A stretch of 64,000 nucleotides of DNA from NCBI RefSeq assembly GCF_029212645.1, contig NZ_JARGND010000006.1, positions 1-64,000 of the forward strand, in the 5' to 3' direction. The notes under the pieces were generated by a model. It worked only from the letters and a program-made list of their open reading frames with translations. It searched no databases and was not told the DNA's origin. Position numbers and translations under genes: made by a program. Below are positions 16,454-58,695 of this stretch, piece by piece (position 1 is the first letter of the stretch; every line of letters starts with the position of its first letter). This DNA is from Vannielia sp. GTDB lineage: Bacteria > Pseudomonadota > Alphaproteobacteria > Rhodobacterales > Rhodobacteraceae.

Positions 16454-17299
16454 TCAAACCCTCTGGCTCGGATGCCAGAAGGTCACGATCTTCTCGATCA
16501 GCGCGACCAGCCCATAAAGGGTGGTGCCCACTGCGGCGGCCACGGTGATCTCCGCCCAGACGAGCGGAATGTTCAGGCTCCCCACCCCCGTCGAAATCCG
16601 AAAGCCCATGCCCCGGATCGGCGAGCCGAAATATTCTGCCACGATAGCGCCAATCAGCGCCAATGTGGTGGCAATCTTCAACCCGTTGAAAACAAAGGGC
16701 ATCGCCGCCGGAAGCCGCAGCTTCATCAGGGTTTGCCCATAGGTGGCGCCGTAGGTGCGCATCAGGTCACGCTGCATCGGGTCTGTCTCTTTCAGGCCCT
16801 GCACCACGTTCACGAGGACCGGGAAAAACACCATCACCACCACCACCGCGGCTTTGGAATGCCAGTCAAATCCAAACCAGCTTACCAGGATCGGGGCGAT
16901 GCCAATGATCGGCAGCGCGGCCACAAAGTTGCCAACCGGCAGCAACCCCGCCGTCAAAAAGGCCGAGCGGTCAATCAGCAGCGCCGTCAGAAACCCCACG
17001 CTACAGCCGAGCAAATACCCCGTCAGCGCGCCCTTCAGCACCGTTTGCACAAAGTCGACCCATAGCGTGTCGGTCTCATTGGCGAAGGTGGCGGCAATGT
17101 CGGTCGGTGCGGGCAGGATCACCGGCGAAACATCAAGCCCCCGCACCAGCCCTTGCCACAGCACCAGCAGGGTAAACCCAAACAGAACCGGCACAAAAAT
17201 CCGCACAGCGCGCAAGTCTGACCAGCGCGAGCGCGCCAAAATGGTATTCACCCCCCATGCCGCCAGCCAAAAGGCCAAGGCCCCGTAAAGCACCGTCAT
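16454..17299 (-). CDS. ABC transporter permease (SsuC/ThiX-like)
   Basis: The 281-residue inner-membrane permease has about six spans. The conserved loop TYGATYGQTLMKLRLPAAMPFVFNGLKI is the EAA motif of the NitT/TauT/SsuC permease group. Its start overlaps the stop of the preceding permease by 4 bases (ATGA), showing tight coupling. Two different permeases in one operon suggest a heterodimeric channel. Confidence 0.85.
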   Translation of the reverse strand: MTVLYGALAFWLAAWGVNTILARSRWSDLRAVRIFVPVLFGFTLLVLWQGLVRGLDVSPVILPAPTDIAATFANETDTLWVDFVQTVLKGALTGYLLGCSVGFLTALLIDRSAFLTAGLLPVGNFVAALPIIGIAPILVSWFGFDWHSKAAVVVVMVFFPVLVNVVQGLKETDPMQRDLMRTYGATYGQTLMKLRLPAAMPFVFNGLKIATTLALIGAIVAEYFGSPIRGMGFRISTGVGSLNIPLVWAEITVAAAVGTTLYGLVALIEKIVTFWHPSQRV

Positions 17300-18174
17300 C
17301 GCGCCATCCCCATGCGTTTAAGGACCAGGCCCTGCGCCAGCCCTAGCAGCGTCACCAGAACGCCCGCAAGGATCGCGGCGGCAAACAGCGCCGCCCAGAT
17401 CGCCAGTGGCGTGCCAAACTGGTCGCCAATCAAAATCCGCGCGCCCAGCCCGCTGATGGCCCCGGTCGGCAACTCGCCCACGATGGTGCCCACCAACGCC
17501 GCCGCAATAGCAATCTTGAGCGAGGTGAACAGATAGGGCATCGAGGCGGGCAACCGCAGCTTGAAAAAGCTCGCCGCCACGCCGGCGTTATAGGTTTTCA
17601 GCAGGTCCAACTGCTCGGTTCCGGGCGAGTTCAGCCCTTTGACCATGCCAACCAGCACCGGGAAATAGCACAGGTAGGCCGAAATTATCGCCTTTGGCAC
17701 CGCGCGGCTCTCGATCCCCACCGCGTTTGACAGCACAATAATCATCGGCGCCAGCGCCACGATCGGGATCGTCTGGCTGACAATCGCCCAGGGCATCAGG
17801 CTCATCTCCATCACCCGGCTATAGGTGATTGCCACCGCCCCCAGAATCCCGATAAACACCCCCAGCGCAAAGCCCGTCAACGTAGAGCCAAGGGTGATCG
17901 CCCCATGGTAAATCAGCGACCTTTTGCTAAAGGCCTTCCCCCGCTGCACCATCGCCCCGGTAGATTTCCAAAGCTCCGAAACCACCTGATGCGGCGCCGG
18001 AAGCCGCGGGCGATCTTGCTGCATCGTGGCCTTGAAAAGCTCCCCGGTGGTTAGTGTCTGCTCCGCCCGCGCCGCTTGCTGAAGGGCCCAGGGCGTGTTC
18101 ATCCGCCAGGAGCCAAGATACCAGATCGCGGTGATGACCAGCAAAACGGTTATAACAGGGAAAGTTTTACGCAT
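17296..18174 (-). CDS. ABC transporter permease (SsuC/ThiX-like), second subunit
   Basis: The 292-residue protein has an N-terminal span (about 7-24), a periplasmic stretch of roughly 60 residues, and then a five-to-six-span permease core with the EAA-type loop LLKTYNAGVAASFFKLRLPASMPYLFTSLKI. It pairs with the downstream permease through overlapping codons. The 84-base gap before it, which separates it from the ATPase gene, holds the 11-bp-phased repeat array described separately, so expression of the membrane part may be controlled apart from hydA and the ATPase. Confidence 0.85.
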   Translation of the reverse strand: MRKTFPVITVLLVITAIWYLGSWRMNTPWALQQAARAEQTLTTGELFKATMQQDRPRLPAPHQVVSELWKSTGAMVQRGKAFSKRSLIYHGAITLGSTLTGFALGVFIGILGAVAITYSRVMEMSLMPWAIVSQTIPIVALAPMIIVLSNAVGIESRAVPKAIISAYLCYFPVLVGMVKGLNSPGTEQLDLLKTYNAGVAASFFKLRLPASMPYLFTSLKIAIAAALVGTIVGELPTGAISGLGARILIGDQFGTPLAIWAALFAAAILAGVLVTLLGLAQGLVLKRMGMAR

Positions 18175-18196
18175 TGGTTAATCGACCTATGCGCCA

Positions 18197-18240
18197 AACG
18201 CATGTGTATGGGTTGTGCATGGGATGTGCATCACTTGTGC
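18197..18240 (-). repeat. Four-unit 11-bp phased array, copy A
   Basis: Read on the minus strand, four units follow without a break: GCACAAGTGAT, GCACATCCCAT, GCACAACCCAT and ACACATGCGTT. A 5-bp inverted repeat (ATGCG-TTTGG-CGCAT, 18189-18203) overlaps the end. A second copy lies at 57702-57745 and matches at 37 of 44 positions by eye. The array fills the gap between the ATPase and permease genes of the pyrimidine transporter. The exact 11-bp phase suggests a multimeric DNA-binding protein lined up on one helix face. Confidence 0.75.
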
Positions 18241-18258: not shown

Positions 18259-19065
18259 TTAGTCATCGTAGGAATGCCCCGCTCTCAGCCCTTCACGGAC
18301 CCGGTGCGCCACTTCAAGAAAGGCTTGCGAGTCTCTGATATCCAACGGCCTTTCCTTTGGGAGAGGGCTTTCTATCACATCCGTTATCCGACCGGGCCTT
18401 GGGCTCATCACAACAATTCTGGTTGAGAGATAGACCGCCTCTGGTATGGAATGGGTAACAAATCCAATGGTTTTCCCGGTGCGCGCCCAAAGCGCCAAAA
18501 GCTGCTCATTCAGGTGGTCACGAACGATCTCGTCAAGGGCGCCAAAGGGTTCATCCATAAGGAGAATTTCGGCATCAAAGGCCAGTGCGCGGGCAATCGA
18601 GGCCCGCTGCTGCATACCGCCTGAGAGCTGCCAGGGGTATTTTCCACCAAAGCCTTCAAGATCAACAAGTTGTAGCACGTTCTTCACGCGTTGCTCTTGC
18701 TCGTCGCGCGAAAAGCCCATGATTTCGAGCGGCAGCTTGATGTTTCCCGCAATCGTGCGCCACGGGTAAAGCCCCGCCGCCTGAAAAACATAGCCGTAAG
18801 CCCTTGATTTTCTGGCCTGTTCCGGCGTCATCCCGTTCACGGTCAGCGTCCCGCCGGCGGGGGTTTCGAGGGCGGCGATACAGCGTAAAAAAGTGGTTTT
18901 GCCACAGCCCGATGGTCCGATGAAGCTCACAAAATCGCCCCGCTGAATGTCCAGCGAAACCCCCTTGAGCGCATGCACCGGCCCATCTGTGGTCTCGAAA
19001 GTAAGATCAAGGTTTTCCGCCCTGATAACAGTATCTTCCGACGGGTTCCTAACGTTCTCGTTCAC
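18259..19065 (-). CDS. ABC transporter ATP-binding protein (SsuB/TauB-like)
   Basis: The 268-residue ATPase energises the NMT1-type importer. Walker A is GPSGCGKT (residues 50-57), followed by the signature LSGGMQQRASIARAL, Walker B ILLMDEPFGALDE and switch His in VTHSIPEAV. The pattern is that of the nitrate/taurine/sulfonate ATPase group. It starts with GTG immediately after the TGA of hydA, with no gap, so the two are translationally coupled. This physical link to dihydropyrimidinase supports a pyrimidine-related substrate. Confidence 0.87.
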   Translation of the reverse strand: MNENVRNPSEDTVIRAENLDLTFETTDGPVHALKGVSLDIQRGDFVSFIGPSGCGKTTFLRCIAALETPAGGTLTVNGMTPEQARKSRAYGYVFQAAGLYPWRTIAGNIKLPLEIMGFSRDEQEQRVKNVLQLVDLEGFGGKYPWQLSGGMQQRASIARALAFDAEILLMDEPFGALDEIVRDHLNEQLLALWARTGKTIGFVTHSIPEAVYLSTRIVVMSPRPGRITDVIESPLPKERPLDIRDSQAFLEVAHRVREGLRAGHSYDD

Positions 19066-56732: not shown

Positions 56733-57515
56733 CTAGAGGTCAGCGAAGATGTTGTCGGCCTCCAGAAGATCAATTCTATCTTCTGATACAGTGCCTTCGT
56801 TAATGTCACGCAGCTCAATCCGGCCATCGCCATGGCCAACGATCACCACGTCACAGATATCAATAAACAGGCCATTTTCAACCACGCCGGGCACCTGATT
56901 GAGCACCAGCGAAAGCTGGCGCGGGTTGTTGATGCGGCGCAGGTGAAGATCGAGGATATAGTTGCCCTCATCGGTGATGAAGGGCGCCTCATCGTTCATC
57001 CGCAGGGTGGTGTCGCGGCCCAGAACATCCATGTTTATAAGGGTTTCCTCGATCAGCGCCTTGGTGGTTTGCCAGCCAAAGGGGATCATCTCGACCGGCA
57101 GGGGGAACGCGCCGAGCGCGGTCACTTCCTTGCCGGCATCGGTGATCACCACCATGCGATCGGAGGCGGTGGCGACGATCTTTTCCTGCAAAAGCGCCCC
57201 GCCGCCGCCTTTGGTGAGGTTCAGCTCGGGGTCAAATTCATCGGCGCCGTCGATGGTGAGATCAAGCCATTTCGCCTCGTCCAGCGAGGTGACAGTGATG
57301 CCCAGTTCGCGGGCCAGATCGGCGGTGCGGGTGGAGGTGGGAACGCCAATGATATCGATGCCTTCATCGCGGATTTTCTCAGCCAGGCAGCGCACCATCC
57401 AGGCCGCCGTGGAGCCGGTTCCGAGGCCCACGCGCATCCCGTCCTGAACGTAATCAACAGCTTTGCGGGCGGCGACGAACTTGGCTTTGTCGATGGGCGA
57501 TAGGTCAGAACTCAT
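56733..57515 (-). CDS. rpiA: Ribose-5-phosphate isomerase A
   Basis: The 260-residue enzyme interconverts ribose-5-phosphate and ribulose-5-phosphate in the pentose phosphate pathway. RpiA motifs are VGLGTGSTAAWMVRCLA (phosphate loop), DLTIDGADEFDPELNLTKGGGGALLQEKIVA (with the catalytic Asp and Lys) and GVVENGLFIDICDVVIVG. ATG 57515 has GGGG nine bases upstream; an in-frame ATG at 57524 is the alternative. It precedes gor on the same strand with a 39-base gap. Confidence 0.94.
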   Translation of the reverse strand: MSSDLSPIDKAKFVAARKAVDYVQDGMRVGLGTGSTAAWMVRCLAEKIRDEGIDIIGVPTSTRTADLARELGITVTSLDEAKWLDLTIDGADEFDPELNLTKGGGGALLQEKIVATASDRMVVITDAGKEVTALGAFPLPVEMIPFGWQTTKALIEETLINMDVLGRDTTLRMNDEAPFITDEGNYILDLHLRRINNPRQLSLVLNQVPGVVENGLFIDICDVVIVGHGDGRIELRDINEGTVSEDRIDLLEADNIFADL

Positions 57516-57701
57516 TGGCGGCATCCCCAGGCAGATATCCCGGGCGTTATAGGCGGTTGGAGGCCGGGGTGCGAGGAGAAACTGGCCCGAATTGTCGCGG
57601 CGTTATAGCCGGTGCTAGGAGGGCAAATGTTGCTGGGCAGGGCTTTGCAGATTTGGCGGCATGGCCGGGGGTTTGCGGCGTTAAGCCTGTTTTTTGAGCC
57701 T

Positions 57702-57745
57702 GCACAAGGGATGCACAACCCATGCACAAGCGATACACATGCAAA
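57702..57745 (+). repeat. Four-unit 11-bp phased array, copy B
   Basis: GCACAAGGGAT, GCACAACCCAT, GCACAAGCGAT and ACACATGCAAA follow without a break, each 11 bases. A TGCA-AAAA-TGCA inverted repeat overlaps the last unit. The array sits in the 268-base gap between the rpiA start and the 3' end of the cation-efflux gene. Relative to copy A (18197-18240) it is on the opposite strand. Two further GGCGTTATAG(G/C)CGGT copies lie nearer rpiA (near 57543 and 57599). Confidence 0.75.
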
Positions 57746-57783
57746 AATGCAAAGCCGCGCCGGGTTAACCCGCCGCGCGCGCC

Positions 57784-58695
57784 CTAGCCGTGGCCGATCA
57801 GCCGGGGAGAGGGGCAGGCATGGGCCGCGCATTCTGTCTCAAAGGTGACGTGGTGGATATCAAAGCGGCTGGCGAGGGTGTGCTTGAGGGCGGATTTGAT
57901 CGCGTCGGCCTCTTCCCAGCGGCCCGGCGCGATGACGAGATGCGCCTCAAGGGCCGGTTCATGCTCTTGCATCTGCCAGAGGTGGAGATTGTGGGTGGAG
58001 GACACCCCGTCTTGCGCGGTGATGGCTGCGGCGACGTCGCTGAAGGCCATGCCAGCCGGAGCGCCCAGCATGAGGATGCGGATCACCCCGCCGATCTCGG
58101 ACAAGGCGTGCCAGAGGATATAGGCGGAGATGAAGAGGGTGATCAGCGGATCAGCCAGGCGCCAGTCATAGAGCAGGATCAGGGTGCCTGCGACGATCAC
58201 CGCAACAGAGCCGAGCGCATCGGCGAGGTTGTGCAGGAAGGCGGCGCGGATATTGGCCGAGGATTTCGACATCGCGTAGGTGAGCAGCGCGGTGATGGTA
58301 TCGACCGCCAGCGCGATGGCGGCGATGATCACCACCGTCCAGCCCTCAACATCGGTGGGATTGATCAGCCGCAGGACCGCCTCATAAGCGAGGTAGATCG
58401 CGAGCAGGATGAGGGTGGTGAAGTTGATCAGCGCCGCCACCACCTCGGCGCGGCCATAGCCAAAGGTCATGTCTTCATCCGCCGGGCGGCGGGCGATCCG
58501 GCGGGCGACGAAGGCGATAACGAGGGAGGCGGCATCCGACAGGTTGTGCAGCGCATCGGCGATGAGCGCGAGCGAGCCAGAGAGGATGCCGCCGATGATT
58601 TGCGCCACTGTGAGCAGCAGGTTGACGGCGACCGCAAGCGCAATGCGGCGGTCACCTGCCTGGGGGTCGATATGGTGGTGATGCGTGTTGCTCAT
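57784..58695 (-). CDS. Cation diffusion facilitator (CDF) metal efflux protein
   Basis: The 303-residue protein has six membrane spans and a cytoplasmic C-terminal domain. The metal sites are visible as HNLSDAASLVIAF (span 2, DALHNLSD) and HNLADALGSVAVI (span 5), the HxxxD pairs of zinc-type CDF proteins. The N-terminus has a His-rich tag (NTHHHHID), and the C-terminal domain ends with several His and Cys residues. It probably exports Zn2+, Co2+ or Cd2+ in exchange for protons. Confidence 0.9.
   Translation of the reverse strand: MSNTHHHHIDPQAGDRRIALAVAVNLLLTVAQIIGGILSGSLALIADALHNLSDAASLVIAFVARRIARRPADEDMTFGYGRAEVVAALINFTTLILLAIYLAYEAVLRLINPTDVEGWTVVIIAAIALAVDTITALLTYAMSKSSANIRAAFLHNLADALGSVAVIVAGTLILLYDWRLADPLITLFISAYILWHALSEIGGVIRILMLGAPAGMAFSDVAAAITAQDGVSSTHNLHLWQMQEHEPALEAHLVIAPGRWEEADAIKSALKHTLASRFDIHHVTFETECAAHACPSPRLIGHG

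Follow-up and report, generated by a model that had tools for sequence, protein, structure and literature searches.

Dispersed 11-bp tandem arrays in Rhodobacteraceae: candidate platforms for a trans-acting protein with a proposed chromosome-scale role

What kind of element fills a short gap between two transporter genes with four head-to-tail units on an exact 11-bp pitch, and recurs in nearly the same form elsewhere on the same stretch of DNA? We examined this question for two arrays, A and B, in 64,000 nucleotides of Vannielia sp. (the window). An earlier note, made from the letters alone, had described them as an array duplicated at two unlinked places and had proposed a selected binding platform or an RNA element.

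Two arrays in the window and their wider family

The arrays, their units and the inverted repeats at their ends were read directly from the sequence and are listed here with their surroundings.

18197..18240, minus strand: array A, four 11-bp units
18230-18240, minus strand: unit 1 of array A
18219-18229, minus strand: unit 2 of array A
18208-18218, minus strand: unit 3 of array A
18197-18207, minus strand: degenerate unit 4 of array A
18189..18203, minus strand: inverted repeat ATGCG-N5-CGCAT, overlapping unit 4 of array A
18176..18182, minus strand: ATTAACC near array A, weak for this copy
18259..19065, minus strand: ABC transporter ATPase gene, its stop 18 nt before the start of array A
17296..18174, minus strand: ABC transporter permease gene, neighbour of array A
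57702..57745, plus strand: array B, four 11-bp units
57702-57712, plus strand: unit 1 of array B
57713-57723, plus strand: unit 2 of array B
57724-57734, plus strand: unit 3 of array B
57735-57745, plus strand: degenerate unit 4 of array B
57740..57751, plus strand: inverted repeat TGCA-AAAA-TGCA (TGCA-N4-TGCA), overlapping unit 4 of array B
57680..57684, plus strand: GTTAA of the genus upstream box (GTTAACCGCAAAAAG in many copies), beside array B
57763..57770, plus strand: GGTTAACC, the genus downstream box, beside array B
57784..58695, minus strand: CDF cation-efflux gene, with array B 38 nt beyond its stop
56733..57524, minus strand: rpiA, neighbour of array B

Array A reads GCACAAGTGAT-GCACATCCCAT-GCACAACCCAT-ACACATGCGTT on the minus strand and array B reads GCACAAGGGAT-GCACAACCCAT-GCACAAGCGAT-ACACATGCAAA. 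Their coordinates and strands, the 37 of 44 identical positions and the short inverted repeat at each end are as the earlier note gave them. Its claim that chance is not at work also holds: the two-unit pattern occurs four times in the window versus 0 times in 100 dinucleotide-preserving shuffles, and the resemblance of A and B is far above chance level. Array A lies among genes for a dihydropyrimidinase, an ABC ATPase, two permeases and an NMT1-like binding protein, a context for which the proposed pyrimidine-transport operon is correct in kind. Our own codon-bias caller, from which the gene calls in this study come, places the permease start at 18144, 52 nt beyond array A.

Searching for the repeated unit, as the earlier note had suggested, returned dozens of matches in the window's own genome and in relatives, with a control of 0. 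The own draft genome holds 60 exact two-unit matches and 138 with at most one mismatch, figures that count overlapping pairs and not separate arrays; the reversed control pattern gave 0. We read 53 arrays in context, a subset of those present. Both copies in the window exist, but they are not a duplication; they are two members of a dispersed family. The 53 arrays share a layout in which three 11-bp units, each ATGCACA followed by four variable bases, precede a fourth, degenerate one, and the degenerate last unit described for A and B is therefore general among them. Most arrays of the genus Vannielia also sit between two boxes, one resembling GTTAACCGCAAAAAG on the upstream side and GGTTAAC on the downstream side, which brings the element to ~105 bp; ATTAACC near array A is a possible, if weak, degenerate counterpart of the downstream box. 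Outside the genus the array is retained and the flanking boxes hardly. The flank classes AAAAAGATCACAG and AAAAAGCGAAGGG recur among non-orthologous own copies and are often not retained at orthologous places, a pattern expected more readily if loci copy from one another than if each is maintained on its own.

How widely are the arrays distributed? A profile (R1) found at least 56 in G002, 57 in G003 and 56 in G001, lower bounds obtained by scoring 150 of 633-653 candidates per genome; G002 and G003 are single-contig genomes, the window's own a draft. Scanning 400 kb of G003 exhaustively with a matrix gave seven arrays scoring 51-65, with nothing further at 14 or above and 0 in the reversed control. 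Exact two-unit matches number 33-99 copies in six of the seven genomes of the genus and 0 in the seventh (G005); among other relatives, one of 54 sampled has a single match. A degenerate pattern matched 12 of 198 family genomes, five of them in many copies (G000 87, G062 61, G093 58, G017 28 and G114 26), with controls of 0. Outside the family, 3 of 285 alphaproteobacteria sampled gave matches (18, 3 and 1, against 2 in the control), and those listed, 13 of the 18 in the first case, proved to be single hits or local tandem repeats. Across these samples the arrays are thus restricted to Rhodobacteraceae, where they occur patchily. Named carriers among the matches listed are Vannielia, Oceanicola sp. 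m2, Actibacterium, Harenicola, Thalassovita, Cognatishimia, Marivivens, Pelagimonas and Thalassobius. The scan behind them found at least 115 loci, of which 89 were kept and 26, with titles lacking Rhodobacteraceae, were dropped. The 88 'named loci' used below are mostly from other genera, with Vannielia and Oceanicola sp. m2 included; two arrays with a template score below 17 were dropped before the counts, and the named-locus logo was made after removing four Vannielia loci and retaining those of Oceanicola sp. m2, which is seemingly close to G002.

Other arrays came to light in these searches. The small-genome alphaproteobacterium G335 has a long tandem array of TTATGCACAGG units (L126 and G335; C4:51052-51165, C28), the source of L126 being a Holosporales MAG. 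Viral contigs (L168, L170, L171, L172, L176, L184, L187, L193, L195, L199 and L207) carry DnaA-box-like arrays on an 11-bp pitch, in which TTATGCACA adjoins TGTGGATAAC, unlike the Rhodobacteraceae type. A motif-free periodicity scan, which recovers four of the seven known G003 arrays, found no other motif on this pitch in 180 kb each of G009 and G019, a weak null result because few arrays would be expected in stretches of that length. We found no description of the four-unit Rhodobacteraceae arrays in literature listings and the starts of abstracts.

The inverted repeat of A and B extends to their relatives in part. With arms of at least six it is present in 26% of the 53 own arrays versus 4-5% in shuffled tails and flanks, an enrichment within the own genome; it is hardly enriched in the 88 named loci, at 10% versus 5-8% in controls.

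Selection on the units and placement along the chromosome

Absence from all relatives, by the earlier note's reasoning, would have spoken against a functional element; the arrays are common to relatives, and many keep their places. Among 47 G003 arrays examined, 27 match an own array in place (6 of the 7 in the 400 kb and 21 of 40 further ones). In the other direction, nine own arrays have flanks that map into the 400 kb, and six of them have an array at the orthologous place. The other three have no G003 array there, with both flanks aligned for L020 and one flank only for two; short 67-69% matches of L005 and L036 were dropped as paralogues, and both were later paired with other G003 arrays. 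The G003 orthologue of array A (L364) likewise lies between the ATPase and permease genes. Orthologues of array B lie between rpiA and the CDF gene in G002 (L294) and G001 (L314). Its G003 counterpart (L386 1571-1614) is on the opposite side of the CDF gene, ~1 kb away, as would result from the loss of one site and the gain of a second close by. In comparisons between genera, neighbour and orientation agree in 8 of 12 pairs hand-picked from shared-neighbour clusters of named loci; the other four match only in part.

Within these conserved sites, the 7-bp unit and the 4-bp spacer have fared differently. We matched the one-to-one order of 56 G001 and 56 G002 arrays by eye and aligned 20 pairs. 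In 14 evenly chosen pairs, changes affect 1 of 350 unit positions and 8 of 168 spacer positions (Fisher P 7e-4). In six pairs picked for differing scores, units are nearly as changed as spacers (9/150 and 7/72), the unit figure counting a deleted unit base by base; all 20 pairs together give 10/500 and 15/240. Across the larger distance of 21 G000/G003 pairs, unit identity is 470/525, and spacer identity, at 105/252, is no better than in non-orthologous or shuffled pairs. The spacers have thus reached saturation by drift, and the units have stayed. With units kept and spacers drifted, the species comparison shows that natural selection keeps the 7-bp unit and not the 4-bp spacer. Two of the six G002/G001 pairs picked for differing scores, L308/L328 and L309/L329, differ in length by a single 11-bp unit, a sign that close species gain or lose units whole.

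We then considered where the arrays lie relative to genes. None of the 53 own arrays is inside a called gene, and one, L012, is overlapped over 13 nt by a predicted gene start; the earlier note had held that a pattern as frequent in genes as between them would not be a functional element. The 49 own arrays with both neighbours visible comprise 18 in convergent, 28 in tandem and 3 in divergent gaps. For 40 G003 arrays the counts are 15, 19 and 5, with one incomplete, and for the 88 named loci 28, 39 and 8, with 4 inside genes and 9 incomplete. As background, the 216 gaps of at least 60 bp in 400 kb of G003 comprise 30 convergent, 130 tandem and 56 divergent. Convergent gaps are enriched (P 6e-5 in the own genome, 1e-4 in G003, 4e-7 in named loci) and divergent gaps depleted (P 0.0004, 0.04 and 0.0009), the depletion being weaker when weighted by base pairs (P 0.003, 0.12 and 0.01). 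Two of the four in-gene named loci (L109, L146) lie within valS, where Cognatishimia and Actibacterium have the array at one and the same position.

Proximity to gene ends raises the possibility of an RNA element or terminator in the 3' UTR. Of the 43 named-locus arrays that lie 3' of a co-oriented gene, 23 are within 30 nt of its stop; the unit is C-rich and G-poor; and RNAalifold, applied to 18 hand-picked own elements (ten with a TGTCA- or CGTCA-type tail), gives a stem of three covarying pairs at unit 4, with both-sided changes in 2, 5 and 5 sequences. This covariation is not specific to RNA, because a DNA inverted repeat would show it as well. RNAalifold finds no fold beyond that stem (-0.65 kcal/mol), the window has no Rfam match, and array orientation is independent of transcription. 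With a three-pair stem only, and with 17 of the 49 own arrays antisense to both neighbouring genes, the RNA half of the earlier proposal is little supported and scarcely probable, whereas its claim of selection is borne out by the species comparison.

In some of the chromosomes, the arrays keep apart. In G003 the smallest gap is 20,284 bp, and 0 of 57 gaps are below 20 kb versus 13.8 expected (analytic P 7e-9). In G002 the smallest is 14,435 bp, with 3 of 56 below 20 kb versus 12.6 expected (P 8e-5); these are not two independent tests, because many sites are probably common to both genomes. The largest contig of G001 has 2 of 42 gaps below 20 kb, the smallest 19.6 kb, and one listed gap in G004 is 13 kb. 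Over-dispersion was not seen in the own draft genome (7 of 20 gaps below 20 kb versus 9.6 expected, P 0.16), where gaps are as short as 4.6 kb. A minimum-spacing rule thus has strong support in a few related chromosomes, and its generality is unproven. From origin to terminus, with the origin placed by parB, quartile counts show no clear gradient (12/14/14/16 in G002, 11/16/18/12 in G003), and 37 of 56 arrays in G002 (P 0.02) and 34 of 57 in G003 (P 0.18) are co-oriented with replication. The wide spacing in G003 and G002 suggests a chromosome-scale role and not control of adjacent genes.

The main competitor to such a role is regulation of the neighbouring genes, in which the arrays would serve as operators for a global transcription factor of a conventional type, such as one of the OmpR/PhoB kind. 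Sites of the OmpR/PhoB type consist of 7-bp half sites on an 11-bp pitch, and the head-to-tail layout of 7 + 4 bp resembles the Pho box. Promoter regions do contain some of the arrays (5 of 39 are divergent in G003), including those before the ribbon-helix-helix gene described below, and the base-pair-weighted divergent depletion in G003 is not significant. Against operators, all three sets show an excess of convergent gaps, divergent ones are depleted in the own genome and named loci, the 17 antisense own arrays are oriented against both neighbours, we saw no common theme among array neighbours, and the minimum spacing in G003 is large. Promoter operators are disfavoured by this placement, and we regard the reading as unlikely.

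Could the arrays instead belong to a non-autonomous mobile repeat of the MITE or REP/RAYT type, being transposase-binding sites whose spacing reflects target immunity? The ~105-bp genus element with GTTAAC boxes at both ends, the flank classes common to non-orthologous copies, the three of nine own arrays with no array in the mapped part of G003, and the G003 array beyond the CDF gene would all suit such a repeat. Yet place and orientation are kept between species and in the 8 of 12 picked between-genus pairs, including valS in two genera; units are conserved while spacers drifted; and loci outside the genus retain the array and hardly the boxes. Mobility of this kind is decidedly improbable. 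Its REP/RAYT form is not supported: the repeat unit is direct, not palindromic, and a Y1_Tnp (RAYT) match is absent from all 11 array-bearing genomes (0/11; one among 10 others).

Motif dialects and a candidate binding protein

The seventh genome of the genus, G005, lacks exact matches and has 27 weak profile hits. The best 20 of these 27 all read GTRCACA instead of ATGCACA, and 10 of the 20, all GTRCACA, are in the place and orientation of an own-genome array. The same dialect occurs in another genus (G017), in all 20 matches listed out of 28. A concerted switch at orthologous sites fits what is expected from a specificity change of a shared binding protein; it fits any trans-acting factor, a conventional regulator included, and copying between loci could be an alternative route, given the recurring flank classes. 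If the first account is true, the two dialects are a natural experiment on the joint change in specificity of a protein and its dozens of sites. One G003 array in the GTRCACA dialect, L389 (G003:3316762), is by eye near-identical, near flanks included, to L254 of G005 (G005:45972), and perhaps represents a recent transfer with the dialect retained.

Could the protein be DnaA, with the arrays as clusters of weak DnaA boxes acting as titration or regulatory sites? The DnaA box consensus is TTATNCACA, and the unit [AG]T[GA]CACA matches its 3' part; several viral contigs place DnaA-box-like arrays on an equal pitch; and DnaA of the genus has an unusual FGNRDHTTVLYA segment. We compared DnaA domain IV in 39 of 40 family genomes, G020 having fallen out of the alignment. 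All seven genomes of the genus (L213, L215, L216, L218-L221) have FGNRDHTTVLYA, and most relatives examined have FGGRDHTT followed by VMH, VIH or IMH. Several observations run against DnaA. TT is not favoured 5' of the unit: the last spacer base of unit 1 in 86 named loci is C 46, G 40, T 11 and A 1%. At the likely G005 origin, near rho/mnmE/gidA/parAB-like genes, TTATCCACA occurs twice and TTATGCACA once, whereas the G005 arrays read GTRCACA. The C-terminal domain of G005 DnaA differs from those of the six other genus genomes by conservative changes only, such as V to I after FGNRDHTTVLYA, and array-bearing G093 has an ordinary DnaA segment. On its own, TTATCCACA is at background (13 versus 6 in the control for G003, 8 versus 12 for G005). 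DnaA boxes are not supported, the consensus not being matched, canonical boxes lying at the likely G005 origin and no matching DnaA change having been found there; this reading is very improbable.

A candidate came from clustering the neighbours of arrays, in which one protein family recurs beside arrays in three genera. It is a stand-alone protein of 132-142 aa with a BrnA_antitoxin ribbon-helix-helix (RHH) domain, and the array lies upstream of its gene, by 63 nt in a Pelagimonas MAG, 52 in Actibacterium atlanticum, 66 in the DEBay MAG and 69 in G003. The four proteins match Pfam BrnA_antitoxin (PF14384) with E values of 2.6e-13, 6.6e-14, 8.5e-15 and, for G003, 2e-14, and have T-R-x-T a few residues before D-A-D-V-V. 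The G003 case turned up among 40 further arrays after the candidate had been proposed from the other three. We estimate a chance of ~2% that a given gene borders one of 40 arrays (~3,900 genes, from 384 per 400 kb, and independent sites), which is too generous because descent links three of the four cases. These three have a common neighbourhood, with genes resembling, by eye, carB, tdk, csaA and proC, and are therefore largely one site by descent; L062 differs.

No RHH gene was found beside any of the 53 own arrays. By eye, no BrnT toxin gene was recognised among the called neighbours of the RHH genes, and no ParM among the translated neighbours in L062, L114, L148 and L391. The L114 protein had no match in a plasmid collection, the L148 protein no sequence match in the PDB, and relatives in viral contigs were not confirmed. 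An AlphaFold model of the RHH protein was poor (mean pLDDT 44), too poor for a fold search. We lean slightly towards this protein as the array binder. As described in PMC9426499, ParR proteins are typically RHH proteins and bind direct repeats, at least two 11-bp repeats in plasmid R1. For the RHH candidate the ParR analogy is a lead and does not assign it to that system.

We put a probability of about 0.6 on the reading that the arrays are dispersed platforms for a trans-acting protein, with a chromosome-scale role and the RHH protein as candidate. Each array would be a platform of three or four head-to-tail sites, made of the 7-bp unit [A/G]T[G/A]CACA and a free 4-bp spacer, along which a trans-acting DNA-binding protein would assemble on one helix face, its sites one helical turn apart. 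Some ~55-60 such platforms would stand over the chromosome, mostly by gene ends and, in two single-contig genomes, rarely or never less than ~20 kb apart, where they might anchor, loop or segregate the nucleoid rather than control adjacent genes. The RHH protein would autoregulate at its own array and bind the dispersed ones much as plasmid ParR binds parC. That some protein binds the arrays is highly probable on the sequence evidence, which suggests the platform of the earlier proposal; that their role is chromosome organisation has, in our view, an even chance. The observations fit a platform for a trans-acting protein better than they fit an operator at promoters, a cluster of DnaA boxes, an RNA element or a repeat of the REP/RAYT type. 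The fullest version, a previously undescribed Rhodobacteraceae chromosome organiser in which an antitoxin-derived BrnA-like RHH protein acts on ~55-60 arrays that avoid ~20-kb proximity and has co-evolving dialects, we offer tentatively and consider rather doubtful as a whole. If true, it would mean that a major family of marine bacteria has dispersed chromosomal sites of a new class, with what looks like a minimum spacing; it would also supply a named, testable DNA-binding protein for them, and an example of an antitoxin-type RHH domain that organises a chromosome.

Comparison with known systems

MatP/matS, SlmA and Noc act at the level of the nucleoid through tens of short sites dispersed over the chromosome. 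The arrays are likewise tens of short sites; those of the known systems are palindromes, whereas the arrays are tandem direct repeats with no clear concentration at origin or terminus. REP/BIME elements, too, are intergenic, lie by gene 3' ends and number tens of copies. Their units are palindromic, in contrast to the direct repeats here, in which an inverted repeat occurs at unit 4 only; unlike REP/BIME, the 11 array genomes examined have no RAYT match, and orthologous places are conserved between species and partly between genera. The Pho box of the PhoB/OmpR family shares 7-bp half sites placed head to tail on an 11-bp pitch and differs in sequence, unit number and genomic placement. DnaA-box clusters have the CACA core in common, and their viral arrays the pitch; unlike them, the arrays lack TT, and the motif switch in G005 comes without a matching DnaA change. 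The BrnTA toxin-antitoxin system has its BrnA RHH domain in common with the candidate protein. In ParR/parC, the type II partition system of plasmid R1, the candidate's domain differs in belonging to the BrnA family, and parC is one plasmid centromere of ten repeats, whereas here dozens of arrays of three or four units are dispersed over the chromosome. Both systems have direct tandem repeats on an 11-bp pitch, and in both an RHH gene adjoins an array lying upstream, as seen in four array genomes, where binding is predicted.
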